Origin: Nitrospirota bacterium
GTDB taxonomy: Bacteria; Nitrospirota; Nitrospiria; Nitrospirales; UBA8639
Assembly: GCA_003695915.1 (NCBI GenBank)
Contig: RFGF01000053.1
Span: 1 to 36,620, forward strand
Length of the DNA stretch: 36,620 bases
Direction of reading: 5' to 3'
Shown here: positions 3,397-34,527 of the stretch, piece by piece
Layout: every line of letters starts with the position of its first letter
Position numbering within the stretch: position 1 is the first letter of the stretch
Notes under the pieces: model-generated
The model's database searches: none
Told to the model about the DNA's origin: nothing
What the model saw: the letters and a program-made list of their open reading frames with translations, nothing else
Made by a program: the position numbers and the translations under genes

Positions 3397-4242
3397 GTGG
3401 GGCTGATCTGTGCGGTGTACCGCCTGGCGCGCTCGAGCGTGTACGTGCACCAGCGGCCGTGTCAGCCCGCGCCCCTCGAGAAGCGGGGCCCGAAGACACG
3501 GTGCAGCGATGCGGACGTCGTCGGCGAGATCCGCCGCGTGTTGGCGAGCTGTCCGTTTTATGGCGAGGGGTCCCGCAAGGTGCGGGCTCGCATCGCGCGT
3601 CGGGGCCTGGCTGTGGTCGGCAAGCGTGTGCTGCACCAGATGCGCACACACGGCCTGCTGGCGCCCCGGCGGATGGGGCCACCCAACGGCAATCCCTCGC
3701 ATGACGGCACGATCATCATGGACCGGTCTTACGTCATGTGGGGGACGGACGCCACCCGCTTCTCCACCAAGCGCGAGGGCTGGTACTGGTTCTTCGGCGC
3801 GATCGACCATTACACTGATGAAGTCGTCGGCTGGCATGTCGCGAAGCTGGGCGATCGCTGGGCCGCGCTCGAGCCGGTCCGCCAAGGCGTGCGACACGCG
3901 TACGGGATGTTTGCCCAGGACGTGGCACGCGGGCTGTGGCTCCGCTGCGATTGGGGGCCCCAATACGTGGCGACGGCCTGGATCAATGAAGTGCAATGGC
4001 TCAGGATCACGAGCTCGCTGAGCTACGTCGGCGAACCGGAGTGCAACGGCGTCGCCGAACGGTTCATGCGGACATTGAAGGAGCAATGCCTGTACCTGCA
4101 TCAGTTCCAGAGTTTGGCCGAGGTGCGGGAGATCATCGCGGTCTTTATCCAGCGCTACAATACCGAGTGGCTCATCGAGCGGCTGGGGCATCGGACACCA
4201 GCGCAGGCCCGAGCGGTTGCGGGAACCCCAAGGGCGGCCTGA
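3397..4242 (+). CDS. IS3-family transposase OrfB (integrase core intact, start region disrupted)
   Basis: The 281-codon frame from GTG carries a complete rve-type DDE core: first Asp in MWGTDATRF, second Asp in LRCDWGPQYVA, and Glu in ECNGVAERFMRTLKEQ. An N-terminal ARSSVYVHQR segment and the HTH_21-like FYGEGSRKVRARI region precede it, and the C-terminal RYNTEWLIERLGHRTPAQAR is typical of OrfB. The natural start is probably the ATG at 3367 overlapping the orfA stop. That frame meets a TAG at 3391-3393, eight codons in, just before the GTG used here. The copy is therefore probably inactive as an OrfAB fusion, although the catalytic region has no other stops. Confidence 0.75.
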   Translation: MGLICAVYRLARSSVYVHQRPCQPAPLEKRGPKTRCSDADVVGEIRRVLASCPFYGEGSRKVRARIARRGLAVVGKRVLHQMRTHGLLAPRRMGPPNGNPSHDGTIIMDRSYVMWGTDATRFSTKREGWYWFFGAIDHYTDEVVGWHVAKLGDRWAALEPVRQGVRHAYGMFAQDVARGLWLRCDWGPQYVATAWINEVQWLRITSSLSYVGEPECNGVAERFMRTLKEQCLYLHQFQSLAEVREIIAVFIQRYNTEWLIERLGHRTPAQARAVAGTPRAA

Positions 4243-12749: not shown

Positions 12750-13946
12750 ATGGCAAAAGTACTTGAAGGGCATGGAATGGGCTTGCTGAGAAAGTGGGGA
12801 TTACATACGCCTAACTATGTCGTGGTGAGTTCGACTGAGGAGTTCGAGCAACTTGCGCGTGCCAATGAGTGGCTCCAAGTTGGCCGATTGGTGGTCAAAG
12901 CCCACGAGGCGTTGGGGTCTCGATTCAAGCTGGGCCTGGTCAAAGTGGGGCTAACATTAGAGGAAGCTAAGGCCGCCGTCAAGGACATGCTCGGAAAGCA
13001 GGTCGAAGCGTTGACGATCAGGCAACTAATCGTTTCGGAAATGGTGGAGCATCAAGACGAGTATTATGCGGCGGTCAAATCGACACGTGACGGGGCAGAT
13101 ATTTTGGTCGCCAACTGCGGGGGCATCGAAGTCGAAGCCAATTGGGATCGGGTCAAAAAGCTCGCTGTGGAGGTGGGGGATTCGCCTTCTGATGGAGCTC
13201 TTCTCTCGTTGGTCAAGGATGCCGGGTTTTCGGAACACACGGCGGGCAGGATGGCCGAGTTTCTCAAAAAACTTTATGCGTGTTTCGATAACGAAGATGC
13301 CCAATATCTGGAAATCAACCCCGTGGTACAGCGGGCCGATGGAGAGCTGGTCGCACTTGATGCCGTGACACTATTGGACGCTGATGCGAAATTCCGCCAT
13401 CCCGATTGGAATTTTCCCTTCGCAGCAGAGTTTGGACGACCCTATACCAAAAACGAATTGGAAGTGATGGAAGTGGATTCCAAGGTGAAAGGGTCCGTGA
13501 AATTGATCGAAATTCCGGGTGGGACAGTGGCGCTGTTACCGGCTGGAGGAGGGGCCAGTGTGTTTTATGCGGATGCCGTTGTGGCCCGTGGAGGCAAACT
13601 GGCGAACTATGCAGAATATTCCGGCGATCCTCCGGATTGGGCGGTCGAAGTGTTGACGGAAAAAGTCTGTTCGTTACCAGGAATCAAACATATTATCGTC
13701 GGGGGAGCCATTGCGAATTTTACCGATGTCAAAAAAACCTTTGGCGGGATCATTAATGCGTTTCGAAAAGCTAAGGCCGAAGGAAAATTGGAGGGTGTGA
13801 AGATCTGGGTCAGGCGAGGCGGTCCCAACGAAAAAGAAGGGCTGGCTGCCATGCGGGCCCTTCGGGATGAAGGATTCGATATCGAAGTGTTTGATCGGTA
13901 CACACCTCTAACAGATATCGTGGATATGGCGTTGGCCACATCTTAG
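12750..13946 (+). CDS. aclB: ATP-citrate lyase, small (beta) subunit
   Basis: With the large subunit, this protein cleaves citrate with ATP and CoA to acetyl-CoA and oxaloacetate, the defining step of the rTCA cycle. The 398-residue length equals that of the Chlorobium small subunit. It has a SucC-like ATP-grasp N-terminal half (GRLVVKAHEALGSRFKLGLV, and EINPVVQRADGELVALDAV as the metal-binding end). The citrate-binding half has PAGGGASVFYADAVVARGG and GGAIANFTDVKKTFGGII, as in the eukaryotic enzyme. A good ribosome site (AAGGAAG) precedes the ATG. It heads a same-strand block of eight rTCA genes. The sequence is clearly the two-subunit ACL type and not the citryl-CoA synthetase/lyase pair of Aquificales, because the next gene carries the citrate-synthase-like lyase domain. 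Confidence 0.95.
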   Translation: MAKVLEGHGMGLLRKWGLHTPNYVVVSSTEEFEQLARANEWLQVGRLVVKAHEALGSRFKLGLVKVGLTLEEAKAAVKDMLGKQVEALTIRQLIVSEMVEHQDEYYAAVKSTRDGADILVANCGGIEVEANWDRVKKLAVEVGDSPSDGALLSLVKDAGFSEHTAGRMAEFLKKLYACFDNEDAQYLEINPVVQRADGELVALDAVTLLDADAKFRHPDWNFPFAAEFGRPYTKNELEVMEVDSKVKGSVKLIEIPGGTVALLPAGGGASVFYADAVVARGGKLANYAEYSGDPPDWAVEVLTEKVCSLPGIKHIIVGGAIANFTDVKKTFGGIINAFRKAKAEGKLEGVKIWVRRGGPNEKEGLAAMRALRDEGFDIEVFDRYTPLTDIVDMALATS

Positions 13947-13975: not shown

Positions 13976-15802
13976 ATGAGCATTCTTGCAACAAAAGACA
14001 CGCATGTGGTGATTCAAGGTGGCCCGGCAGGGGTCAATGCAGCGCGCCGAATGGCAGAATTTTGTTATTTGATTAAACGCCCGATCAATGTGTCGGCCTT
14101 TGTCTATCCTCCCGATGCCGGCAAGACGAATGAAATTATCTATGGCACCGACTTGATCACGATCCCCGTGTACAAAAGTATTGCCGAGGCGACGAGCAAT
14201 CATCCGGAGATTAATACCAGCTTGGTCTATATTGGTGCGGATCGGGCTTATGCTGGGGCCAAAGAGGCCTTGGATGATCCACGAATTCAAGTGGTCTCTA
14301 TGATCACGGAAGGCGTGCCGGAAAAAGACGCCAAGCTGCTGGGAAAGCATGCGCGCAAGCTCGGGAAAATTTTTAATGGCCCCTCCTCGATCGGGGTCAT
14401 TTCGGCGGGAGAATGCCGTTTGGGAGTAATCGGTGGCTCGTTCGATAATTTGGTGGCCTGCAAGTTGTATCGCCCGGGCTCCTTTGGTGTGATCACAAAA
14501 TCCGGCGGATTGTCGAACGAGATTATTTGGATTTGTTCCCAGTTTGCTGACGGGATCACCACGGCCATTGGTATCGGCGGCGATGCCTATCCCGGAACGG
14601 ATTATGTCAGTTATTTGGAGATGTTTGAAAAAGATCCACAGACCAAGGCTGTGGTCATCGTGGGAGAAATGGGCGGTGACTTGGAGGAGCGGGCAGCGGA
14701 ATGGTTCGCTGCGGCCAAGCGCCGGATCAAATTGCTGGCAGTTGTGTCCGGATTTTGCCAGGAAGCGCTGCCAAAAGGAATGAAATTTGGCCATGCCGGC
14801 GCAAAAGAAGGGTTGAAAGGGGAAGGATCGGCACGAGCGAAAGCTGAAGCGCTGAAAAAGGCGGGGGCGATCGTACCGGAAACGTTTGGTGCGCTTGGCC
14901 CTGCCATCAAGCGGGTCTATGAAGAGTTGCTCGAACGCGGTGAAGTTCGACCAATTCCAGAGGTGAGTCCTTCGGAATTGCCTCGGTTGCCCAAGACCGT
15001 CGAGCAAAGCATGAAAGAGGGCGAGGTTTTAGTCACTCCGCTCATCAAGACCACAATCAGTGATGATCGTGGTGATGAACCATTGTACTGTGGGTATCCG
15101 GCTTCGGAGCTCATCAATAAAGGCTATGATATTCCCCATGTCATTGGTCTGTTGTGGGATAAGCGGCTGCTTTCGAAGCAGGAAGCTGAAATTATTAAAC
15201 GCATTATCATCCTTTCTGCGGATCATGGGCCTTGTGTGAGCGGAGCGTTGGCGACCATCATCGCTGCTTGTGCTGGGATTGGAATGTCCCAAGCCGTGGC
15301 GGCGGGCCTGATTATGATCGGCCCCCGTTTTGGCGGGGCGGTGACAGATGCTGGGCGGTGGTTTAAGCATGCCGTAGACAATCGCATGTCGGTGGACGAA
15401 TTTTTAAGTTTCATGAAGAAAAATGTAGGGCCAGTCCCGGGAATCGGACATCGCGTCAAGAGCGTGAGAAATCCGGATACTCGTGTGAAGGAATTGGTCA
15501 AGTATGTCAAGAGCCTAGGTATCCCCACCCCGCACCTCGATTTTGCGCTAGAGGTTGAGAAAGTGACCTCGGCCAAAAAAGAGAACCTGATTTTGAATGT
15601 CGATGGCACGATGGCTGCGGTGTTAGTGGATCTTGGATTTCCTGTCGAGAGTTTGAACGGGTTCTTCATCTTGGCTCGCACCATCGGATTGATTGGTCAT
15701 TGGACGGATCAAAAACGGCAAGGAAGTCGACTGATCCGCCTCTATGATTATTTGGTCAATTACGCGGTGCCAAAGCGAAGAGAAGTACCACCTCTTCAAT
15801 GA
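13976..15802 (+). CDS. aclA: ATP-citrate lyase, large (alpha) subunit
   Basis: The 608-residue protein equals the Chlorobium large subunit in length. The N-terminal half is a SucD-like CoA-binding and ligase region: VIQGGPAGVNAARRMAEF, then SKSGGLSNE-type motifs. The phosphohistidine is His273 in KFGHAGAKEG, the counterpart of His760 of human ACLY. The C-terminal half is a citrate-synthase-like citryl-CoA lyase domain, with His417 in SADHGPCVSGA and the PGIGHRVKSVRNPDTRV segment. This fusion identifies a true ATP-citrate lyase. AAGGAG lies before the ATG and only 29 bp separate it from aclB. The presence of both genes is a strong marker for CO2 fixation by the rTCA cycle, although reversible use cannot be excluded from sequence. 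Confidence 0.95.
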   Translation: MSILATKDTHVVIQGGPAGVNAARRMAEFCYLIKRPINVSAFVYPPDAGKTNEIIYGTDLITIPVYKSIAEATSNHPEINTSLVYIGADRAYAGAKEALDDPRIQVVSMITEGVPEKDAKLLGKHARKLGKIFNGPSSIGVISAGECRLGVIGGSFDNLVACKLYRPGSFGVITKSGGLSNEIIWICSQFADGITTAIGIGGDAYPGTDYVSYLEMFEKDPQTKAVVIVGEMGGDLEERAAEWFAAAKRRIKLLAVVSGFCQEALPKGMKFGHAGAKEGLKGEGSARAKAEALKKAGAIVPETFGALGPAIKRVYEELLERGEVRPIPEVSPSELPRLPKTVEQSMKEGEVLVTPLIKTTISDDRGDEPLYCGYPASELINKGYDIPHVIGLLWDKRLLSKQEAEIIKRIIILSADHGPCVSGALATIIAACAGIGMSQAVAAGLIMIGPRFGGAVTDAGRWFKHAVDNRMSVDEFLSFMKKNVGPVPGIGHRVKSVRNPDTRVKELVKYVKSLGIPTPHLDFALEVEKVTSAKKENLILNVDGTMAAVLVDLGFPVESLNGFFILARTIGLIGHWTDQKRQGSRLIRLYDYLVNYAVPKRREVPPLQ

Positions 15803-15884: not shown

Positions 15885-18131
15885 ATGTCTCTCGAACTTG
15901 TACAAAAAGTCTATGGAGCAATGCCCGTAGCGATAGAAAAAGCGAGAAAGAAATTCGGTCGGCCACTAACGCTTACGGAAAAAATACTGGTGTCCCATGC
16001 TGATCATTTCGATACCCAAGTGTGGGAGCGAGGGAAAGCCATGCTCGCACTCCGTCCGGATCGCGTGGCCATGCAGGATGCCACCGCGCAAATGGCGATG
16101 CTTCAGTTTATCCAAGCAGGGAAAAAGCGCGTAGCGGTCCCCAGCACCATCCACTGCGATCATTTGATTCGTGCGGAATCAGGGTCCGAAAAAGATTTGT
16201 TGCGCGCCATGGATGAAAATCGGGAGGTCTACAATTTCTTGGCTTCCGCCGCGAAAAAATACGGGATCGGCTTTTGGAAGCCTGGGTCTGGCATTATTCA
16301 TCAGGTCGTGTTTGAAAATTATGCCTTTCCTGGTGGATTAATGATCGGGACGGATTCCCATACGCCCAATGCCGGGGGACTCGGTATGTTGGCCATTGGC
16401 GTTGGTGGAGCGGATGCCGGAGAAGTGATGGCTGGGTTAGCGTGGGAAGTGTTGCACCCCAAATTGGTGGGAGTGCGGCTTACCGGTCAATTGCAAGGGT
16501 GGGCCTCGCCGAAGGATGTCATTTTGTATATTTGTGGATTGCTGACGGTCAAAGGGGGCACGAATAAGATTCTCGAGTACTTTGGCCCAGGAGTAGAAAC
16601 GATCAGTGCAACCGGGAAGGGCACGATTACCAATATGGGTGCGGAGTTGGGCGCCACCACGTCCATCTTCCCCTTTGATCAGAAAATGGCGGCCTATTTG
16701 CGGTACACGGATCGTGAAGATATTGCCAAGCTCGCTGAAGCTAACAAGGAATTCTTGGTCGCGGATCCTGAGGTGCATCAATCTCCAGAACGTTTTTTTG
16801 ATGAAATTATCGAGGTGGATCTTTCATCGCTCGAACCCCATGTCGTGGGACCCCATACGCCGGATCTTGCCCGACCGATTTCACGAATGGCGGAAGAAGC
16901 TAAGGAGAAGGGCTATCCTGTCGAGTTGAAGGCTGCGCTCATCGGCAGTTGTACAAATTCTTCGTATGAAGATATCAGTCGTGCTGCGTCGGTAGCGAAG
17001 CAAGGACTCGAAGCCGGACTAAAGGCCAAAACGGCATTTTTGGTCACTCCTGGATCCGAGCGGATCTTCCATACGATGAAGCGAGACGGTTTTCTGGAGA
17101 CCTTTCAAGCGATGGGCGGGACGGTTTTGGCTAATGCCTGTGGCCCATGCATCGGACAGTGGAAGCGCGCTGATGCAGTGAAGGGACGGGCTGATTCTAT
17201 TGTCAGCTCGTTCAATAGAAATTTCCCCGGTCGAAACGATGGGATTCCAGACACCCTGTCCTTTCTGGCCAGTCCAGAGATCGTCACGGCATACGCGTTT
17301 GCTGGCGATCTCACCTTTGACCCTGTCCACGGATCGTTGAAAACGCCCGATGGCAAAGAGGTCGTCTTTTCTCCGCCCCAAGGAGAAGAATTGCCTAAGC
17401 AAGGGTTTGCCAAAGGGGAAGAAGGCTATGTGCCGCCAGCGGAAAATGGCGATGACCTCACCGTGGAAATTCCCCCGACCAGCGAACGGCTTCAGTTGTT
17501 GCAGCCGTTCCCGCGCTGGGATGGAAAAGATTTCGACAAGCTGCCCATTTTGATTAAAACCAAAGGGAAAACCACGACCGACCATATTTCACCGGCCGGG
17601 CCTTGGCTCAAATACCGCGGACATCTCGATAAAATCAGCGACAATATGTTTCTGGGGGCCACGAATGCGTTTACGAGCGAGATGGGGAAAGGTATCGATG
17701 TGCTGACCGGCGAAGCCGGCCTTCCTATTGCCCAAATCGCTCGTCGGTATAAGGAGCAAGGCATCGGCTCTGTGGTTGTAGGGGATGAAAATTATGGCGA
17801 AGGGAGCAGCCGGGAACATGCTGCGATGTCTCCGAGATATTTGGGTGTGAAGGCGGTTCTGGCGAAGAGTTTTGCCCGCATTCACGAAACGAACCTCAAA
17901 AAACAAGGCATCCTTCCGCTCACTTTTGCGAATCCCAGCGATTATGATTTGATCGAGCAGGAAGATCGGATCAGCGTCGTTGGGTTAAACGAACTGGCGC
18001 CTGGAAAGCCGGTGCAGGTTATTCTTCATAAAAAGGATGGACAAGAGATCCCTATTCAAGCTAATCATAGTATGACGGAGCAGCAAATCCGGTGGTTTCG
18101 AGCCGGCTCGGCGTTGAACGCCTTGAGCTGA
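15885..18131 (+). CDS. acn: Aconitate hydratase, mitochondrial-type
   Basis: Aconitase interconverts citrate and isocitrate through cis-aconitate using a [4Fe-4S] cluster; in the rTCA direction it makes citrate. The 748-residue length and sequence match the mitochondrial ACO2-like group rather than the ~890-aa AcnA or ~865-aa AcnB. The cluster cysteines are Cys356 ([10 protein letters not shown]), Cys419 and Cys422 (ACGPCIGQW), almost the same numbering as in animal mitochondrial aconitase. Substrate-binding motifs such as [25 protein letters not shown] and [15 protein letters not shown] are intact. The C-terminal swivel domain ends [11 protein letters not shown]. The ATG at 15885 follows GGAG. 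The gene sits between ATP-citrate lyase and isocitrate dehydrogenase, as expected for rTCA use. Confidence 0.96.
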
Positions 18132-18171: not shown

Positions 18172-19443
18172 ATGCATTATGTCAAATTGACGCCTCCCGC
18201 GAGCGGCCAAAAAATTACGATGGGGGAGGATGGGAGGCTCCATGTTCCGGATCGTCCGATCGTGCTGTTTATCGAAGGCGACGGGACCGGTCCGGAATTG
18301 TGGGCGGCTGCGGTTCGGGTTTTTGACGCGGCCGTTGAGCGGGCTTATCGAGGAACGAGAAAAATCGAATGGTTTGAGGTCTATGCCGGAGAAAAATGCA
18401 ATGCGGTTTATGGTGAAAATACTTGGCTCCACGATGACACCGTCCACGCATTTCGAGAATTTTTAATAGGAATGAAAGGCCCGCTTACCACACCAGTAGG
18501 TGGAGGAATTCGCAGCATCAACGTGGCGCTGCGACAGGTGCTCGATTTGTATGTCTGTCAGCGGCCTGTCAAGTGGTATCCAGGAGTGGCGTCTCCCGTC
18601 AAGCGGCCAGATCTCATTAATATGGTCGTATTCCGGGAAAACACAGAAGATATTTATGCCGGCATCGAATGGCCCCAAGGGACACCAGAGGTTAAAAAAG
18701 TCATTAATTTTATCCAAAATGAGATGGGTGTGACGAACATTCGTTTTCCGGAAACATCCAGCATCGGCGTGAAGCCCATTAGTCGAGAAGGCACCTCCCG
18801 ACTGGTTCGCGCTGCCATTGCTTGGGCCCTTCAACACGATCGCAAAAGCGTCACGCTTGTCCATAAGGGCAATATCATGAAGTTTACCGAAGGCTATTTT
18901 TGTAAATGGGGTTATGAAGTCGCGAAGAAGGAATTTGCGGATACCACGGTGAGTTGGGATGCATGTGGAGGTCATCCTCCGAAGGGGAAACTGCTTATCA
19001 AAGATGCGATCGCAGATAACTTTCTTCAGCAAATTTTAACGCGCCCGGTAGAGTACGATGTAATAGCTACCATGAATTTGAATGGCGATTATATTTCCGA
19101 TGCCTTGGCAGCGCAGGTGGGTGGATTGGGGATTGCCCCAGGAGGTAACATCAATTATCTCACAGGTCACGCCTGTTTTGAGGCGACGCATGGGACCGCG
19201 CCCAAATATGCCGGGCAAGATAAGGTGAATCCAAGTTCGCTAATTCTCTCGGGAGCGATGATGTTCGACTATATGGGGTGGCGCGAGGCCGGTGCGCTGA
19301 TCGAATCCGGGTTGTCGCGAGCCATTGCGGCTGGCACAGTGACTTATGATTTTGCGAGACTCATGAGAGAAGAAGGGCGAACGGATGTGAAAGAAATAAA
19401 ATGCTCGGAATTTGGAACTGCTATTGTCGATCATATGGTATGA
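18172..19443 (+). CDS. icd: Isocitrate dehydrogenase, NADP-dependent (type I)
   Basis: In the reductive direction this enzyme carboxylates 2-oxoglutarate to isocitrate. The 423-residue protein is close to E. coli Icd throughout. The substrate loop [13 protein letters not shown] has Ser115 at the place of the phosphorylated Ser113. Coenzyme-specificity residues Lys345, Tyr346 and Val352 (PKYAGQDKV) plus Tyr392 and Arg396 ([10 protein letters not shown]) are the NADP set. Metal-binding Asp residues lie in the [13 protein letters not shown] region. It starts 40 bp after the aconitase stop. The ATG at 18172 gives a start equivalent to other members ([19 protein letters not shown]). No kinase/phosphatase gene (aceK) is present nearby. 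Confidence 0.96.
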
Positions 19444-19491
19444 GCCGAATATGGGCTACCCGAATTGAAAACGTAGTATGCAGCATTGACG

Positions 19492-20211
19492 ATGTCTACG
19501 TCGGAATTTGATACCAACAAGGTTCTTGAGCAGGAAGAGAACCTCCAGCCTAAAATGGTGACGGTGGAGATTGCCGGGAAACCTCACCGAGTACCCGCGG
19601 GCATTACCTTGATGAAGGCGTTATGGTACACCGGCCATGAAGTCATTCGGGGCGCCGGGTGCCTCGGTGGGTTTTGTGGCGCTTGCGGGACCTATTACCG
19701 CACGAAGGATGATCCGCGAGTCAAGACCTGTCTGGCCTGTTCGTTCGCCGTAGAAGATGGCATGTCTTTTTCTTTCGCTCCCCCGTTTCCTGCCCGAAAA
19801 GCAATTTATCGAATGGAGGAGCTCAAGGATCCGAAACAGGATCTGTTCACGCTGTATCCAGAAGCGCCGCTCTGTCGCAATTGCAATGCGTGTACAGAAG
19901 CCTGCCCTCAAGCTATCGATGTGCGCGAAGGGGTGTGGCGTGCCGTGTTTGGTGATTTCAAAGCGGTTTCGGAAATGTTCATGAATTGCGTGATGTGCGG
20001 CCTCTGTGCCCCTGTCTGCATTGCCGATATTGCGCCGAATTTCGTCGCGCTGTATGCCAGTCGGGCTCAGGGCGTATATTTTACGGAAAAGCCCAAAGGA
20101 TTAGCTGAACGGATTCAAGCCATTGCCGATGGCCGATACGACGAAGAATGGAATCGAATCCTTTCCATGACCGATGAGGAACTCGAGCAAGCTTCGGCTT
20201 CTGCTGCGTAG
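19492..20211 (+). CDS. frdB: Fumarate reductase / succinate dehydrogenase-like iron-sulfur subunit
   Basis: The 239-residue protein is an electron carrier expected to feed the flavoprotein encoded next to it. A plant-type [2Fe-2S] domain is shown by Cys57, Cys62, Cys65 and Cys80/83 (CLGGFCGAC and TCLAC). Two ferredoxin-type motifs follow: CRNCNACTEAC at 128-138 and CVMCGLCAPVC at 166-176. Both are Cx2Cx2Cx3C, so two [4Fe-4S] clusters are likely. In classical SdhB/FrdB the last motif binds a [3Fe-4S] cluster and has a different spacing. No membrane-anchor or haem subunit gene is near, so the enzyme may be soluble or use an anchor encoded elsewhere. I used the ATG at 19492; a TTG lies two codons earlier. 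Confidence 0.8.
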   Translation: MSTSEFDTNKVLEQEENLQPKMVTVEIAGKPHRVPAGITLMKALWYTGHEVIRGAGCLGGFCGACGTYYRTKDDPRVKTCLACSFAVEDGMSFSFAPPFPARKAIYRMEELKDPKQDLFTLYPEAPLCRNCNACTEACPQAIDVREGVWRAVFGDFKAVSEMFMNCVMCGLCAPVCIADIAPNFVALYASRAQGVYFTEKPKGLAERIQAIADGRYDEEWNRILSMTDEELEQASASAA

Positions 20212-20231: not shown

Positions 20232-21818
20232 ATGACATTGTCTGCCCTGCAAGACATCGTTCACCAAACCCGAGAAGCCCGCCGGAAACAGGTGCTTCCG
20301 AAATTGACCCCATCCGAGCGAGATACGCTGATCAAAAAATTTCATCCAGATTGTCGCGAGCAGGCATATCGCCCGCTCAAATTTGGTCCCAATAAGGGTC
20401 AACTCACGGTTCGCGAACTGGCTGCGCTGTTGGAAGGAGACAGTCCTGTTCCCTATGATTTACCGCTCGATCCGGATCACACGGTCGATGTGTTGGTGAT
20501 CGGAGGCGGTGGAGCAGGCTGTGCAGCAGCCCTTCATGCACATAAGGCGGGGGCCAAGGTTCTTCTGGCGACAAAATTGCGCCTGGCCGATTCCAATTCT
20601 GTGATGGCTCAGGGTGGGATGCAAATTGCCGTGGCTCCTGATGATTCGCCGGTTCAACATTTTTTGGATACGTTGAAGGGTGGGCATTTTAAAAACGATC
20701 GCCAATTGCTCAAGGTCATGGTCGAAGAGGGACCATCTATCGCGCAATGGTTATTGGAGCTTGGCGTGTTGTTCGATCGGGATACCGATGGAAGTTTGCA
20801 CGTCAAGAAAGGAGGCGGCAGTACCAAGCCTCGATTGGTTACCTGCTCCGATTATACTGGCTTGGAAATCATGCGGGTGCTCAAAGATGAAGTGTTGAAT
20901 CGACAGATTCAACTTCTAGAATTTTGTGCGGCGGTGGAGCTCCTGACGAACCGCGATGGTGTGTGCACAGGGGCTGTGCTTCGAGATCTCGACAACAAAC
21001 GATTTATCGTGGTAGCGGCGAAAGCCGTGATTTTGGCCACCGGAGGGATTGGCCGACTGCACATTCAGGGATTTCCCACCAGCAACCACTATGGTGCAAC
21101 GGGCGATGGGCTAGCTTTGGCGTATCGAGCAGGGGCTCCTCTCGTTCATATCGATACGTTCCAATATCATCCAACTGGAGCAGTCTATCCGGAGCAATTG
21201 GTGGGAGCCTTGGTGACAGAAGGCATTCGCTCAGAAGGCGGGCATCTCGTGAACGCCAGAGGCGAACGTTTTGTCAACGAGTTGGATACCCGAGATGTCG
21301 TCTCTTCTTCGATTATTCGGGAATGCGAAGAAGGGCGTGGAATCAGGACGCCAACCGGCCGGATGGGGGTTTGGCTCGATACTCCGTTATTGGAACTCGA
21401 GCATGGGGCCGGAACTCTTGAAAAACACTTTCCGGCCATGGTTCGTCAATACGAGCGTTATGGCATCGACATTCGAAAGGATCCGGTCCTCATTTATCCG
21501 ACCTTGCACTACCAAAACGGTGGGGTCCAGATCGATGTCAATGCCGAGACAGCCGTGCCCAATTTGTTTGTCGCAGGTGAGGCCTCGGGCGGGTTGCATG
21601 GTCGAAACCGGTTGATGGGCAACTCGCTGTTGGATTTAATGGTGTTTGGCAAGCGGGCTGGTTTGACGGCTGCAGCCCGAGCAGCATCAAATCGACAGGG
21701 CGTGCTGACTCTCCAGCACCTCCGTCGATTCCGAGAAGAGGCCAAGCGTTATGGTGTGACGGAACAAATTACATCCCCGGTCATCCTCCCGGCCTACACC
21801 AGAACACAGGACTCATGA
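20232..21818 (+). CDS. frdA: Fumarate reductase-like flavoprotein, lacking covalent-FAD His and C-terminal domain
   Basis: This FAD enzyme of the FrdA/SdhA/NadB superfamily is expected to reduce fumarate to succinate in the rTCA cycle. The FAD-binding VIGGGGAGCAAA is at 89-100, preceded by an 85-residue N-terminal extension I do not recognise. Active-site residues are present: His313 (QYHPTGA), Arg333 (EGIRSEGG), His426 (TLHYQNGG) and Arg460 (NRLMGNSLLDL). The His that carries covalent FAD in Frd/Sdh (RSHTVAAEGG) is replaced by Asn122 (DSNSVMAQGG), as in non-covalent members such as NadB. The protein stops at 528 residues, about 60 after the NRLMGNS motif, so most of the usual C-terminal helical domain is missing. 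The stop overlaps an ATG (ATGA, 21815-21818). L-aspartate oxidase is less likely, given the FrdB partner and the rTCA setting. Confidence 0.8.
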   Translation: MTLSALQDIVHQTREARRKQVLPKLTPSERDTLIKKFHPDCREQAYRPLKFGPNKGQLTVRELAALLEGDSPVPYDLPLDPDHTVDVLVIGGGGAGCAAALHAHKAGAKVLLATKLRLADSNSVMAQGGMQIAVAPDDSPVQHFLDTLKGGHFKNDRQLLKVMVEEGPSIAQWLLELGVLFDRDTDGSLHVKKGGGSTKPRLVTCSDYTGLEIMRVLKDEVLNRQIQLLEFCAAVELLTNRDGVCTGAVLRDLDNKRFIVVAAKAVILATGGIGRLHIQGFPTSNHYGATGDGLALAYRAGAPLVHIDTFQYHPTGAVYPEQLVGALVTEGIRSEGGHLVNARGERFVNELDTRDVVSSSIIRECEEGRGIRTPTGRMGVWLDTPLLELEHGAGTLEKHFPAMVRQYERYGIDIRKDPVLIYPTLHYQNGGVQIDVNAETAVPNLFVAGEASGGLHGRNRLMGNSLLDLMVFGKRAGLTAAARAASNRQGVLTLQHLRRFREEAKRYGVTEQITSPVILPAYTRTQDS

Positions 21819-21892
21819 AATACGATGACGGTCGGCAATCGTTGGTGAGCCATTTAGCTCATCACGCCATTCAGTGCCAAGGAATTGTATGA
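21815..21892 (+). CDS. Possible 25-codon linking ORF between frdA and sucC
   Basis: A short frame starts with an ATG overlapping the frdA stop (ATGA) and ends with a TGA overlapping the sucC ATG (ATGA, 21889-21892). It fills the 70-bp gap exactly. The product would begin MKYDDGRQSL and be rich in His near its end. It could be a coupling minigene that carries ribosomes from frdA to sucC, or a coincidence. There is no independent evidence of a functional peptide. Confidence 0.2.
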   Translation: MKYDDGRQSLVSHLAHHAIQCQGIV

Positions 21893-23088
21893 ATATTCAC
21901 GAATTTCAGGCCAAACAATTGTTCGCTCGGTTCGGCATTCCGGTGCCCAGAGGCAAGGCGATCACAAGCCCCAAGGCGGCTGAAAAGTGGGCAGCGGCTC
22001 TTCAGGCTGATGTGTACGTCATCAAAGCACAAATTCATGCTGGAGGACGAGGAAAAGCTGGCGGTGTCAAGCTAACCAACAATCGGGACGAAGTGCCCGA
22101 GCTCGCCAAAGAATTGCTGGGAAAGACGTTGGTGACGCATCAAACCGGCCCTAAAGGCCGCAAAGTCCGACGTGTGTTGATTGAAGAAGGGGCTGATATT
22201 GCCAAAGAACTCTATCTGAGTTTGTTGGTCGATCGGGACTCAGGGCGTCCCACGTTCATTGCGAGCACCGAAGGAGGGATGGAAATCGAGGAGGTTGCCG
22301 CACGGTCGCCTGAAAACGTCTTGAAAGAACCCGTCGATCCTGCCGTTGGTTTTCAAGGTTATAACGGGCGAAATCTTGCTTTTGGCTTAGGGCTTCCCAG
22401 CTTGGAATCCACCGTGGTCACGCCGTTCATTCAAATGCTGGGGAATCTCTATCAATTGTTCATGGAGAAGAACGCGTCGCTCGTCGAAATTAATCCTTTG
22501 GTCATAACGAAGGATAAACGACTGGTGGCGTTGGATGGAAAAATCTCGCTGGACGATAACGCCCTTTTTAAGCATCCTGACCTACAAAAACTCCGCGATC
22601 TTCATGAAGAAGATCCTTTGGAGATCGAAGCCAGCGAACATCATTTGAACTATGTCAAATTGGACGGTGATATTGGCTGCATGGTCAATGGAGCTGGATT
22701 GGCGATGGCCACGATGGATGTGATCAAGCTGGCTGGGTCGGAGCCTGCCAATTTTCTTGACGTGGGTGGCAGTGCGACGAAGGACACGGTCGCAGCCGGC
22801 TTCCGGATTTTGTTGAAGGACAAAAACGTCAAAGGAATTTTTATTAATATCTTTGGCGGCATTGTTCGCTGTGAACGGATCGCTCACGGTGTGATCGATG
22901 CCGCAAAAGAAGTCGGAATCACCTTGCCGGTCGTGGTGCGTCTCCAGGGAACCAATGCAGAAGAGGGGCGCCAGCTACTTTTGCAATCAGGGCTCACGGT
23001 AGACGTGGCGACCGACTTGTGGGAAGCGGCGCAAAAAATTGTCGCCATGACGCGAGGAAAGTCAAGCGGTTCTGGCTTGGGTCACTAG
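21889..23088 (+). CDS. sucC: Succinyl-CoA synthetase, beta subunit
   Basis: Together with SucD, this protein makes succinyl-CoA from succinate, CoA and a nucleoside triphosphate in the reductive direction. The 399-residue chain begins MNIHEFQAKQLFARFGIPVP, the canonical start. The ATP-grasp fold is shown by VYVIKAQIHAGGRGKAGGVK and by EINPLVITKDKRLVALDGKI, with the metal-binding residues. The C-terminal half contains NFLDVGGSATKDTVAAGFRI and FINIFGGIVRCERIA, typical of the subunit interface and power-helix region. The ATG at 21889 has AAGGA six bases upstream; an upstream GTG at 21874 is rejected. Nucleotide preference (ATP or GTP) cannot be told with certainty. Confidence 0.96.
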   Translation: MNIHEFQAKQLFARFGIPVPRGKAITSPKAAEKWAAALQADVYVIKAQIHAGGRGKAGGVKLTNNRDEVPELAKELLGKTLVTHQTGPKGRKVRRVLIEEGADIAKELYLSLLVDRDSGRPTFIASTEGGMEIEEVAARSPENVLKEPVDPAVGFQGYNGRNLAFGLGLPSLESTVVTPFIQMLGNLYQLFMEKNASLVEINPLVITKDKRLVALDGKISLDDNALFKHPDLQKLRDLHEEDPLEIEASEHHLNYVKLDGDIGCMVNGAGLAMATMDVIKLAGSEPANFLDVGGSATKDTVAAGFRILLKDKNVKGIFINIFGGIVRCERIAHGVIDAAKEVGITLPVVVRLQGTNAEEGRQLLLQSGLTVDVATDLWEAAQKIVAMTRGKSSGSGLGH

Positions 23089-23172
23089 AAGATAGCCGGT
23101 ATCCTGAGCGCACGCTCAAATGTGCTGGACAGCAGTGGAATCCTGCACGGTAGGGAAAGGTCAAAAGGGCGC

Positions 23173-24045
23173 ATGAGCATTTTGGTGAATAAATCGACGC
23201 GGGTGGTGGTTCAAGGCATCACGGGCAAAGAGGGTTCCTTTCATGCGACGCAATGCAAAGCGTATGGGACGCAAGTCGTTGCCGGTGTTACACCCGGGAA
23301 AGCCGGACAAACGGTGGATGGCATACCGGTGTTCAATACAGTTCGCGAGGCCGTGAAGCACACGGAAGCCTCCGTCTCCTTGATTTTTGTTCCTCCGGCG
23401 TTTGCCGCCGATGCCATCCTCGAGGCAGCGGATGCCGGCATTTGGCTCATTGTCTGCATTACGGAAGGCATTCCCGTCAACGATATGGTGAGAGTCAAGC
23501 GCGCGTTGCAAGGTAGCGTTTCCCGCCTCATTGGTCCAAACTGTCCAGGGATCATTACGGCAGAGGAATGCAAAATCGGTATCATGCCGGGATTCATTCA
23601 TCGCAAAGGGCGTGTTGGCGTCATCTCCCGGAGCGGGACGTTGACCTATGAGGCAGTGAATCAGCTCACCACATTAGGATTGGGAGAAACCACTTGTATC
23701 GGTATCGGGGGCGATCCCATTATTGGCACCGGGTATATCGATCTCTTGCAGATGTTTGAAGAAGACGAGGATACCGAGGCGGTCGTGATGATCGGAGAGA
23801 TCGGGGGCGATGCCGAAGAAAAAGCCGCCGCCTTCATCAAAGAGCATATCACCAAGCCGGTCATTGGATTTATTGCCGGGATTACCGCTCCCCCGGGACG
23901 ACGGATGGGGCACGCCGGTGCCATTATTACAGGAGGTCAAGGGACGGCAACGGAAAAAATGACCGCCCTTGAAGCCGCCGGTGTTCATGTCGTGCGCAAT
24001 CCGGCTGAGATCGGCGCTACGGTCGCAAAAGTCCTCAATACATAA
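23173..24045 (+). CDS. sucD: Succinyl-CoA synthetase, alpha subunit
   Basis: This subunit binds CoA and carries the phosphohistidine intermediate. It has the Rossmann-type CoA-binding start [19 protein letters not shown], the [20 protein letters not shown] loop, and the catalytic His247 in [13 protein letters not shown]. Its 290-residue length is normal. The ATG at 23173 ([13 protein letters not shown]) is chosen; the frame is open further upstream, but the extra 17 residues have no family match. It is 84 bp downstream of sucC and is the last recognisable gene of the rTCA block. Its N terminus resembles that of aclA (MSIL), in keeping with their common ancestry. Confidence 0.96.
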
Positions 24046-30836: not shown

Positions 30837-31451
30837 ATGGCAACATCATCATATAAAGTGCTTCCAGGACCAGAGCACTTTTTGCCGCCAGCGGCGGCAG
30901 CAATGGGGATCCGGCTTCCTAACCCCGGGGAAGCTCATATCCATGGGGAGATCGTTCCAGAAGAAAAAGCGATGGAAGTGGCGGCAAAGCAATTTTTGAT
31001 GGCTAAAGTTCCAACAATTTTCCCCGGGCCATTGGTTCTTTGGGCGTGGAATGAAAAAGCAGCTCAAAAAGCCAAGGCTGTCCGTCATCTTTTTGAAACG
31101 ATCAAAGAATGCGTGACTCCCTCTCAACGGCCTATGCTGATTCCGATGCCCGATTATCGTCCCAAATATCCTAAGATCAATCCGGAAATCGAAATTAATC
31201 CGAATCATCCAAACCTGACGATCTGGCATAATAAAATCGATACCTGCATGTTTGTGGGGGTGCATTGCCATCAGGCCAATTTGTCACTCAAAATCATTCG
31301 GGGCGGGACCAGTTGCTATACGATTGCGATGTGTGCTCAGGCAGGGCATGAAGATGCCATGCTTTCTTTTCGTGATGCTACAGCAGAGAAAATTCTGAAA
31401 CTGGCTGAATGGATTAAAAAGCTAAAGGGAACTGTCGGTCCTTCACAGTAA
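30837..31451 (+). CDS. Accessory subunit of a five-gene 2-oxoacid:ferredoxin oxidoreductase
   Basis: The 204-residue protein starts the operon and is followed by the alpha, beta, gamma and ferredoxin-like subunits. I recall proteins of this kind as the additional subunit of five-subunit 2-oxoacid:ferredoxin oxidoreductases in Aquificales and Nitrospira, sometimes labelled 'carbon monoxide dehydrogenase beta subunit family'. The C-terminal half, IDTCMFVGVHCHQANLSLKIIRGG followed by CYTIAMCAQAGHEDAMLSF, is compatible with a CdhB-like nucleotide-binding fold. It has Cys and His residues (CMFVGVHCH) but no ferredoxin motif. A proline-rich segment (MPDYRPKYPKINPEIEINPNHP) separates the halves. Its exact role (assembly, FAD binding or oxygen tolerance) is not known. 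Confidence 0.65.
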   Translation: MATSSYKVLPGPEHFLPPAAAAMGIRLPNPGEAHIHGEIVPEEKAMEVAAKQFLMAKVPTIFPGPLVLWAWNEKAAQKAKAVRHLFETIKECVTPSQRPMLIPMPDYRPKYPKINPEIEINPNHPNLTIWHNKIDTCMFVGVHCHQANLSLKIIRGGTSCYTIAMCAQAGHEDAMLSFRDATAEKILKLAEWIKKLKGTVGPSQ

Positions 31452-31574
31452 TCTGGTCAAAAGAAAAGATGTGTAGGCTTACCTTCCCTCGATTACAAGA
31501 TATCGCTCCTGGTTTTCTGGTTTCATCGATCTCATCCCATGAATATACATTAAAATATAAAGGAGGTCACACTC

Positions 31575-32783
31575 ATGGCCACACCGTCGATTATCGGGCA
31601 AAAGAATAAAAAGGGGCAAGTGTATACGGATCCTTGGTATATGTTGCACGAGGCGCCAAGAACGCCGTCATTCTTTACCGGGAGCGAAGTCATCAAAGAA
31701 GCCATTCGGCGAGCCAGCGTCGATGTGATGATTGCATATCCGATTACGCCGCAGAGCGAGGCCGCCGCGTTGATTGGCGAATTGTTTGCTGAAGGCTATG
31801 TTGGTGACTACTTCAGGGGAGAAAGCGAGTTTGCTGTGATGTCGGAATGTGCCGGAGCTGCATTTGGTGGAGCCCGTGTGTTTACGACTACGGCGGGTCC
31901 GGGGACGATGCGGGCAATGGAAAACTTCCCAATGTGGGCAGGGTCACGGCTTCCTATCCAAATGATCGTCACCTGTCGAGGAATCAATTCTCCGTTGTCC
32001 ATTCAGCCGGATACATTAGAAATGGCCTATCTGTTACAGACCGGAATGTTGGTCTGGCATGCTGAAACGGCCCAGGATTTCTATGATTGGATCTTAAAAG
32101 GCTATATGGTGGCGGAGGAACCCGATGTTCATTTACCGCTTGCCTTGTGCTGTGACGGATTTTTTGTGACGCACACCAAGGATATGGTGGAGTTGACCCC
32201 AGCTGATATGTGTTTGCCGCCCTATGATCCCTATCGGTCTCCAGTGCCTTGTATGGACATGGAATGCCCTCCGGTTCGGATGATGCGCGATCCGTTTGTC
32301 ATGAAGAGCAATTATATTAGTTATGCCACTCATGCGAGTTGGCAACAAGAAGTATGGGCGGCCGTGGAGCGATCCAGAAAGCATACCATTGCATGGCTTG
32401 ATGGATTGATCGATGCGGAAAATGTCGAATCCGATGTCGTGATTGTAGCTTCCGGGACCGCCGTTTCTCAGGGACGGGAAGCTGTCGCCATGCTTGCGGA
32501 CGAAGGAATTGATGTCGGGTTAGTGAAAGTCAAAACCATTCGCCCATGGCCTGGCGAGGAAATTCGTGAGGCCACTAAACATGCCAAGCATATTGTAATT
32601 CCTGAATTTAATATCATTGGATGGTTGGCTCGAGAAGTCAAAGCCACAATTCCGAATAATGAAAGAGTGCACGCAGGTCCTCACGTTGCTGGTGGCATGA
32701 CCATGCCTCCGGAAATTATTGTTGGCGAAATCAAGAGCCTGTTGGGCATGAAAGTGGAAACGCTAGCCACCAGGGGAAGTTGA
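31575..32783 (+). CDS. porA: 2-oxoacid:ferredoxin oxidoreductase, alpha subunit
   Basis: The enzyme carboxylates acetyl-CoA to pyruvate or succinyl-CoA to 2-oxoglutarate with reduced ferredoxin; both reactions occur in the rTCA cycle. The alpha subunit has the POR N-terminal domain (FTGSEVIKEAIRRASVDVMIAYPITPQSEAAALI, with the PITP loop near residue 55), GESEFAVMSECAGAAFGGARVFTTTAGPG, and a C-terminal transketolase-like domain II (DVVIVASGTAVSQGREAVAML). AAGGAGG lies just before the ATG. The 402-residue length is normal for a separate alpha chain without a fused gamma domain. Sequence alone does not tell pyruvate from 2-oxoglutarate specificity, so the symbol is provisional. It is 123 bp after the accessory-subunit gene. 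Confidence 0.88.
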   Translation: MATPSIIGQKNKKGQVYTDPWYMLHEAPRTPSFFTGSEVIKEAIRRASVDVMIAYPITPQSEAAALIGELFAEGYVGDYFRGESEFAVMSECAGAAFGGARVFTTTAGPGTMRAMENFPMWAGSRLPIQMIVTCRGINSPLSIQPDTLEMAYLLQTGMLVWHAETAQDFYDWILKGYMVAEEPDVHLPLALCCDGFFVTHTKDMVELTPADMCLPPYDPYRSPVPCMDMECPPVRMMRDPFVMKSNYISYATHASWQQEVWAAVERSRKHTIAWLDGLIDAENVESDVVIVASGTAVSQGREAVAMLADEGIDVGLVKVKTIRPWPGEEIREATKHAKHIVIPEFNIIGWLAREVKATIPNNERVHAGPHVAGGMTMPPEIIVGEIKSLLGMKVETLATRGS

Positions 32784-32788
32784 GCAGC

Positions 32789-32823
32789 CTCAGGCGATAA
32801 CAGATAAAAGATTGTCGCCTGAG
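32789..32823 (+). promoter_or_regulatory. Intercistronic hairpin between alpha and beta subunit genes
   Basis: CTCAGGCGATAA at 32789-32800 pairs with TTGTCGCCTGAG at 32812-32823 (12 bp, one G-U pair) around an 11-nt loop. It starts 5 bp after the alpha-subunit stop. No T-run follows, so it is more likely an mRNA-stability or processing element than a terminator. The next ribosome site (AAGGAG) is 42 bp further on. Confidence 0.6.
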
Positions 32824-32873
32824 CAAGATAGAATCTGCATCCAAGGAGATAATTTGAAAAAGGAGAGAATGTT

Positions 32874-33782
32874 ATGAGTCTGGAACGTATAAAAATAGCA
32901 CCTGAGTTATACGACATCATGCCCCCTGAATATCAGGATCTCGTGCAACGTGCGACATATGGCAAAGAGTCGAGAGGATGGAAGGATATTGGGACGACCA
33001 AAGAGTTGATCGAGGAGCATTCTCTTTGCGCTGGCTGTCCGGAGTCTATGGCCTTTCGGTATATTCTGGCTTCTCTGCCGAACCCCGAAGATACCGTAAT
33101 GGTAGGCTCGACGGGATGCACCAGCTTGGTCTTTCCCCATGTGGCCGTGCATAATATTCACTCGCTTTTTGGGAATCAGAACGCGGTTGCTTCTGGATTA
33201 AAGCGAGCATTGGCGCTTCGCTTCCCTGGGCGAATCAAGGATGTGGTGGTTCTTGCAGGCGATGGGGCGACGGTCGATATCGGCTTGGATATGACGCTTC
33301 AATCCTGGTTCCGACAAGAAAAATTCACGACCATTTGCTTTGATAACGAACTGTATGCCAATACCGGAGGCCAGGAAAGCGGATTAATGCAAAAAGGATT
33401 TGTTGCAAAAATGGCACCGGTAGGCAAAACGTTTGAAAAAGTGCGCTTGCCCGAAATTGCTCGTGAATCTGGGTGTCATTATGTGGTCAATTGTACGGTC
33501 AGCAAACCCAATCTTGTTGAAAAAGTTGTGAAAAATGCCGTATACGTGGCCAGAGAAATAGGACCGACCTATATTCAATTTTATACACCATGCATTTTGG
33601 AGATCGGGAAAAACAGCATGGAAGGTCTCCAAGAAATGCGGGATGCGGAAAAGCCTAACGAGCGCTTTGCCTATAAAGAATATGTCAGCGATGCGGCCAA
33701 AGAACTCTTAGCGGAAATTGCCGCCAAGGAAAAGGAAAGAAAAGCAGCGGCTAAAAAACAATTGGCTGGGCAGAACGCTTGA
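32874..33782 (+). CDS. porB: 2-oxoacid:ferredoxin oxidoreductase, beta subunit (thiamine diphosphate-binding)
   Basis: The beta chain binds thiamine diphosphate and the catalytic [4Fe-4S] cluster. The cluster ligands appear as CAGCPE near residue 52, GSTGCTS, and a later Cys in FYTPCILE. The ThDP/Mg motif is VVLAGDGATVDIG followed by the Asn-containing FDNELYANTGGQ. The conserved LFGNQNAVASGLKRAL follows the proximal cluster motif. The protein is 302 residues with a Lys/Ala-rich tail (AAKEKERKAAAKKQLAGQ). AAGGAG precedes the ATG. It forms the catalytic dimer with the alpha chain. Confidence 0.9.
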   Translation: MSLERIKIAPELYDIMPPEYQDLVQRATYGKESRGWKDIGTTKELIEEHSLCAGCPESMAFRYILASLPNPEDTVMVGSTGCTSLVFPHVAVHNIHSLFGNQNAVASGLKRALALRFPGRIKDVVVLAGDGATVDIGLDMTLQSWFRQEKFTTICFDNELYANTGGQESGLMQKGFVAKMAPVGKTFEKVRLPEIARESGCHYVVNCTVSKPNLVEKVVKNAVYVAREIGPTYIQFYTPCILEIGKNSMEGLQEMRDAEKPNERFAYKEYVSDAAKELLAEIAAKEKERKAAAKKQLAGQNA

Positions 33783-33825
33783 TTGAACATTTGCGCGAAG
33801 CCTAAAGAGCGCAAGGGGGAGAATT

Positions 33826-34527
33826 ATGATAAAGCGACGGCTCAATATTCGGATGTCCGGGCTTGGAGGCCAAGGGGCAGTGACGGCAGCGCATGTTTTG
33901 GCAATGGCGGCGGCAAAAGACGGAAAATACGCGATTTCCAATCCATTTTTTGGCGCAGAAAAACGGATGGCCCCTGCAGAAAGCTATTGTCGTATCGGCG
34001 TGTATCGAATCTATGATCGTGGAGAACTTGTCTATCCCGATGTCATTGAAGTGTTTCACCCCCAAGTCATCACAATGGGGAAAAGTTATACCATGCCGTT
34101 TTATTCGGGCATTAAAGAAAATGGGCTCGTCATCATCAATTCAGAGGTTCCACTGCTTTCAGACGAAGATGTCAAGCGACTGAAGGACTTGAATGTGGCG
34201 GTGTTTTATATTCCTGGCACACAAATCGCGTTAGAAATCGCAGGGACCGAATTATCGACGAACATGACCATGATCGGATCGGTGGCCGGCATCACCAAAT
34301 GTGTCTCGCTCCAGGCCTTGGATCTAGCCCTGCAGGAGCGGTTTGGGAAAAAATTCGTGGCCTCTGGAGGAACGGCGACATTGGATGAAGCGATTAAGAA
34401 AAAATTCGCCAAAAAAGAAATGCTGCTCAAGAAAAACCTCGAAACAGTAACGCGGGCGTATAATATCGCGGCAGAATGGGCTGAAAAAAATAATGTGGAA
34501 TTATGTGTGGCTGAAGCCTCTGCATAA
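33826..34527 (+). CDS. porG: 2-oxoacid:ferredoxin oxidoreductase, gamma subunit
   Basis: The 233-residue protein matches the POR gamma domain: IRMSGLGGQGAVTAAHVLAMAAAKDG at the N terminus, then SNPFFGAEKRMAPAESYCRI and ALEIAGTELSTNMTMIGSVAGI. This subunit helps bind CoA and completes the heterotetramer core. It starts 43 bp after the beta gene behind GGGGGAG and is followed 29 bp later by the ferredoxin-like subunit. No unusual features. Confidence 0.9.
   Translation: MIKRRLNIRMSGLGGQGAVTAAHVLAMAAAKDGKYAISNPFFGAEKRMAPAESYCRIGVYRIYDRGELVYPDVIEVFHPQVITMGKSYTMPFYSGIKENGLVIINSEVPLLSDEDVKRLKDLNVAVFYIPGTQIALEIAGTELSTNMTMIGSVAGITKCVSLQALDLALQERFGKKFVASGGTATLDEAIKKKFAKKEMLLKKNLETVTRAYNIAAEWAEKNNVELCVAEASA

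Follow-up and report, generated by a model that had tools for sequence, protein, structure and literature searches.

A probable soluble fumarate reductase of the Nitrospirales reductive TCA cycle, with a predicted non-covalent FAD and a candidate NuoF-like electron donor

The five-subunit FrdABCDE of Hydrogenobacter thermophilus is reportedly a soluble NADH-dependent fumarate reductase of the reductive TCA (rTCA) cycle, a finding attributed to a 2008 paper of Miura and colleagues that PMC12743299 cites; compared by description only, the enzyme proposed here resembles it in being a soluble NADH-dependent rTCA fumarate reductase. For Aquifex, an FrdA of 63.9 kDa has been described, together with one subunit annotated nox and none NuoF-like by name (PMC10052474). 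Leptospirillum ferriphilum carries frdAB in a ccs/ccl rTCA operon (Levican et al. 2008, PMC2607301), where the product was described as a type E membrane enzyme with covalent FAD and ubiquinol, and orf1 was proposed as membrane anchor. In L-aspartate oxidases (NadB) and the soluble fumarate reductases of bacteria, FAD is bound non-covalently, and these enzymes reduce fumarate without oxidizing succinate (PMC9557727); covalent linkage lifts the potential of the FAD by some 100 mV (PMC9557727, PMC10238741). Nitrospira, comprising the main nitrite oxidizers and the comammox bacteria, fixes CO2 via the rTCA cycle. Both the enzyme of its fumarate step and the electron donor were left open by a 2019 transcriptome paper on N. 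moscoviensis (PMC6606698), in which a flavoprotein auto-annotated as SdhA or NadB (NITMOv2_0695) reached much higher expression than SDH/FRD or the canonical NadB. In the same data a lone nuoF accompanied by genes for a ferredoxin and for Fe-S insertion (NITMOv2_4064) was highly expressed, and complex I of type CI_1 was tentatively proposed as its partner (PMC6606698).

The window, i.e. the whole analyzed stretch of 36,620 nucleotides from a Nitrospirales genome (contig RFGF01000053.1), was found to hold on its forward strand two ATP-citrate lyase subunit genes (ATP-grasp + citrate-binding, 12750..13946; CoA ligase + citrate synthase-like, 13976..15802), followed by genes for aconitase (15885..18131) and NADP-isocitrate dehydrogenase (18172..19443), frdB (19486..20211), frdA (20232..21818), sucC for succinyl-CoA synthetase beta (21874..23088, with the downstream ATG, MNIHEF..., as probable start) and sucD for the alpha subunit (23122..24045). 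The placement of frdA in an rTCA operon by the sequence-only reading thus stands. The iron-sulfur subunit FrdB (241 aa; an ATG at 19492 is also possible) contains four ligands for a [2Fe-2S] cluster and eight for two [4Fe-4S] clusters. It does not have the three-Cys [3Fe-4S] third cluster of covalent complex II FrdB: Cys171, the fourth ligand of the third cluster, was Cys in 52/52 FrdB rows and is Val in E. coli FrdB. Only Fer2/Fer4 domains were matched in FrdB, and the search of the window operon for a membrane-anchor gene returned none; FrdAB is probably a soluble enzyme. Elsewhere in the window, an integrase-core (rve) transposase-like ORF was located 5' of the operon (3397-4242), and genes for a multi-subunit 2-oxoacid:ferredoxin oxidoreductase, preceded by a CO dehydrogenase/ACS epsilon-like gene (PF02552), were located at 30837-34527.

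The 528-aa frdA product was matched by FAD_binding_2 (PF00890, 301 bits) and belongs, by its sequence, to the FAD_binding_2 fumarate reductase/succinate dehydrogenase superfamily. In an alignment with E. coli FrdA, SdhA and NadB, the flavin-site motif DSNSVMAQGG (residues 120-129, 20589..20618) was placed such that Asn122 stands in the column of the FAD-linking His of E. coli FrdA (RSHTVAAEGG) and SdhA. Both this substitution and the four catalytic residues named in the sequence-only reading were recovered, His313, Arg333, His426 and Arg460 corresponding to H232, R248, H355 and R390 of E. coli FrdA. Further residues absent from that list are likewise kept, namely Glu330 (E245) and Arg354 (codon at 21291..21293), the counterpart of the proton-shuttle Arg287; with Thr329 at the substrate-site T244, all seven of H232/T244/E245/R248/R287/H355/R390 (E. 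coli FrdA numbering) are conserved. It is very probable that frdA encodes the catalytic subunit of a fumarate reductase. Asn was also found at the flavin site in 132/132 family sequences, down to approximately 50% identity and most of them mutually close relatives, and in the FAD-linking column of 47/47 aligned family rows. Because of this invariance in 132/132 sequences, Asn122 is not a chance substitution. With the linking His lost, the flavin is in all probability non-covalent, as had been predicted.

A second unusual feature is the N-terminal extension of about 85 aa (20232..20486, forward strand), which carries the family-specific motif [H]PD[Y/C]R...GxNxG...ELAxLLExxS with Pro39, Asp40, Gly52 and Asn54 invariant in 47/47 rows. 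Residues 1-85 gave no match in Pfam (best E 0.17) and no significant match among PDB sequences, and when the extension alone was searched against Pfam, PDB and plasmids, the significant matches were family members only. At the other end, the chain stops 67 residues past ...GRNRL, versus 188-210 in E. coli SdhA/FrdA, and the C-terminal helical domain is absent. A frameshifted or otherwise hidden C-terminal domain, or a sequencing error, was considered and rejected, as the remaining reading frames around the 3' end contain either stop codons or sucC (MNIHEFQAKQL...). The sucC start lies about 75 bp past the frdA stop, so no domain is concealed there, and the orthologues match the frdA product in length. 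Thus the claims of an unrecognized N-terminal region and a truncated C-terminus were both upheld, and the downstream sequencing error that had been offered as a way to overturn them was not encountered. AlphaFold gave a poor model with 18 orthologues (pLDDT 46) and a moderate one with 48 (pLDDT 61, pTM 0.69), the latter confirming the fold only, without placing the N-extension or the C-terminus; in a Foldseek search with the second, medium-confidence model, SdhA/FrdA structures were the top matches.

Orthologues of frdA were detected in about 90/98 related genomes, nearly all at 76-83% identity and some as contig fragments only, the carriers being Nitrospira, including N. moscoviensis and N. 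defluvii, and other Nitrospirales. With the N-terminal 83 residues alone as query, the extension was found in 139/296 Nitrospirota genomes. Full-length homologues occur in other Nitrospirota classes and families (50-69% identity), and near-full-length members outside the phylum were those of Ilyobacter (52%) and of Cupriavidus, Paraburkholderia, Caballeronia and Pseudoroseomonas (47-49%). Identity to the frdA product family-wide is 47-83%, across Nitrospirota, Ilyobacter and Proteobacteria; a search of viral contigs returned no relatives. The Asn substitution and the missing domain are, at the level of sequence, family traits and no oddity of a single gene. All four genomes of family f4 (genus g13) lack the FrdA family despite belonging to the same order. 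Among the loci retrieved from across the Nitrospirota, frdA mostly follows frdB and lies within rTCA genes, either with ATP-citrate lyase, a setting retained throughout the class, or, in family f21, with a citryl-CoA synthetase/lyase-like set. The family also occurs outside rTCA operons. Many non-Nitrospirales members (12 loci) have a tandem pair of different frdB-like genes 5' of frdA, where the window has one.

In a maximum-likelihood tree of the core, calculated for the family together with NadB and SDH/FRD sequences, the FrdA family formed a clade with 100/100 support on the SDH/FRD side, its sister group being poorly supported (83/96). The frdA product shares its fold and catalytic residues with complex II SdhA/FrdA (E. 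coli SDH, QFR), from which the system differs by lacking the FAD-linking His, the C-terminal helical domain, the three-Cys [3Fe-4S] site in the B subunit and, as far as the operon shows, the membrane anchors. That it might instead be an L-aspartate oxidase, or a relative oxidizing aspartate or another dicarboxylate, is suggested by the automatic annotation of the N. moscoviensis protein and by NadB itself, which is soluble, has a related core and likewise shows Asn/Ser at the flavin site in place of the covalent-FAD His. The NadB clade (100/100), however, is split from all others by a 100/100 branch, and the diagnostic Glu121 column holds Glu in 5/5 NadB rows but Gly, Pro or Ala in all 47 family rows. 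The score against the NadB model was 318 bits versus a cut-off of 453, a separate NadB (SNTFYAQGG) is encoded in the same genome, and frdA stands in an operon with frdB and rTCA genes. NadB identity is hence considered extremely improbable, and the family is distinct from NadB as originally stated; the placement inside NadB that would have spoken against the claim did not occur.

Equally improbable is a covalent or decayed SDH subunit, with the flavin on another residue or the gene truncated by error. The missing C-terminal domain and the low score against the SdhA/FrdA model TIGR01812 (326 bits, cut-off 567) would fit such a protein, but equal length and residues are kept in about 90/98 related genomes and phylum-wide, sucC follows immediately, and the genome has a normal SdhA (RSHSNAAQGG) adjoining SdhB. 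Among NCBIfam models, the highest score was obtained with TfrA NF004900 (376.7 bits, cut-off 718), which covers residues 84-489 only; its cut-off was passed by 0/246 Nitrospirota genomes. The likeness to methanogen TfrAB is thus one of the core only, TfrA having no N-extension and a longer C-terminus, and TfrB having C-terminal Cys-rich CCG domains that the window FrdB lacks.

The closest described relative is probably the L. ferriphilum FrdAB, which appears to be a member of the family. The genome set f21, probably Leptospirillum by its gene order, shows the Leptospirillum arrangement and encodes an FrdA 50-54% identical to the window protein, with the Asn, the N-extension and the short C-terminus; the Asn at the flavin site argues against the covalent FAD described for the Leptospirillum enzyme. 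The designation of the protein as a distinct class of fumarate reductase was therefore upheld in part: the clade is real and well separated, but the term overstates a discovery, because frdAB of the Leptospirillum rTCA operon had been reported before (PMC2607301) and soluble fumarate reductases with non-covalent FAD are a known kind. The novelty lies in the likely electron donor of the family.

Taken as a whole, the data favor as the likely identity of the locus a soluble FrdAB fumarate reductase of the Nitrospirales rTCA cycle, with a proposed electron supply from NADH through NuoF. FrdAB would convert fumarate to succinate, with FAD held non-covalently at a presumably low potential, so that the enzyme would work in one direction. 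The suggested bias towards fumarate reduction agrees with the non-covalent relatives, which do not oxidize succinate (PMC9557727).

As to the electron donor, a question missing from the sequence-only reading and the more informative part of the analysis, two NuoF homologues were found in the own genome, one inside a complex I operon (L184) and one stand-alone (L183:4035-10893, contig C98) with malate dehydrogenase, [2Fe-2S] ferredoxin and PTPS. The mdh-NuoF-ferredoxin order is kept across Nitrospirales, and the N. moscoviensis locus adds an A-type Fe-S carrier-like gene. The stand-alone NuoF is not a complex I NuoF by either clade or neighbors, and falls into one clade with the Frd-linked NuoFs, which a 100/100 branch separates from complex I NuoF. 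Such linked genes were seen directly after frdA in four Proteobacteria (frdB-frdA-nuoF) and in a deep Nitrospirota genome (G128) as frdA-sucC-sucD-nuoF, while G103 has sucC-sucD-nuoF. A profile search for the NuoF clade, in which matches split cleanly (at least 580 bits versus at most 548 bits), yielded both genes in 127 genomes, FrdA only in 12, NuoF only in 14 (2 of them with a partial FrdA) and neither in 143, i.e. the stand-alone NuoF in 127/139 FrdA-bearing genomes, counts inflated by shared descent. Fisher p-values were computed but, because the genomes are related, were not taken as a measure of evidence strength.

On balance, these linkages lean towards FrdAB receiving electrons from NADH through the NuoF-like subunit. 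Electrons would enter from NADH at its FMN/[4Fe-4S] sites (L183:4559-6313, beside malate dehydrogenase and the [2Fe-2S] ferredoxin) and pass via the FrdB clusters and FAD to fumarate. Against the pairing, the Nitrospirales NuoF gene lies outside the frd operon, in three f13 genomes FrdA occurs but this NuoF does not, Fe-S and FAD/NAD proteins being encoded after sucD, the partner proposed for the N. moscoviensis NuoF was complex I of type CI_1 (PMC6606698), and spending NADH on fumarate is thermodynamically wasteful for a nitrite oxidizer. In families f14, f20 and f38 (L296-L301), same-clade NuoF genes stand between cytochrome b/4Fe-4S/FlpD (MvhD) fusion genes, and no family FrdA was found in the sampled genomes; the NuoF module therefore serves other partners too, this arrangement suggesting a membrane quinone-linked NADH module. 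No description of an FrdAB-NuoF enzyme was found in the literature searched.

The same fumarate reductase might draw on another donor, such as ferredoxin in its reduced form, a partner of the thiol/Hdr type, or menaquinol delivered by an unlinked protein. This is an unlikely option, to which the position of the Nitrospirales NuoF gene outside the frd operon lends weight, as do the HdrABC/MvhD and Fe-S/FAD-NAD genes that adjoin family members in Ilyobacter and some Nitrospirota, the best NCBIfam match being the thiol-driven TfrA, and the anchor role proposed for Leptospirillum orf1 (PMC2607301). It is countered by an FrdB without a C-terminal CCG/HdrB-like domain, by a window operon in which no anchor gene was found, and by the linkage of NuoF-like genes with family members of unrelated lineages.

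The supply from NADH through NuoF, as the favored route, bears directly on N. moscoviensis. There the FrdA orthologue maps to 657.9 kb. The lone NuoF maps to 3.840 Mb, its neighbors being a ferredoxin and a protein resembling A-type Fe-S carriers, and locus-tag numbering from the 0695 position predicts 3.85 Mb for 4064. Because positions and neighbors fit both genes, we infer with high confidence that NITMOv2_0695 is the FrdA orthologue and NITMOv2_4064 the stand-alone NuoF; the high expression of both (PMC6606698) speaks in favor of the donor pairing. The flavoprotein with the ambiguous SdhA/NadB annotation would then be assigned to the rTCA fumarate reductase. The FrdAB-NuoF pairing is a testable proposal that bears on the use of NADH versus quinol and hence on the cost of the rTCA cycle.

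An extension of the NADH route, in which FrdAB, the NuoF-like subunit and ferredoxin form an electron-bifurcating NADH:fumarate/ferredoxin enzyme, is regarded as very doubtful. If true, the steep drop from NADH to fumarate would drive ferredoxin reduction for the 2-oxoglutarate and pyruvate ferredoxin oxidoreductases and fill a gap, since no ferredoxin-reducing mechanism has been identified in Nitrospira save a possible 2M-type complex I (PMC6606698). In its favor are the Hdr-type complexes adjoining the family members named above and the presumed low potential of the non-covalent FAD. Against it, the NuoF-like subunit is no longer than a plain NuoF and lacks the extra domains of bifurcating hydrogenases.

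On a plasmid of Ilyobacter polytropus (L168), family frdBA has as neighbors hdrABC, mvhD, genes for Fe-S and FAD/NAD proteins and one for aspartate ammonia-lyase, an arrangement suggestive of aspartate fermentation with a bifurcating fumarate reductase. The homologue of this FAD/NAD subunit in the own genome (L176/L182) was rejected as a candidate donor, as it is part of a NiFe hydrogenase cluster. This cluster, of group 3b type and with Fe-S and FAD/NAD subunits, is located at L182:6111-10253 (contig C120).
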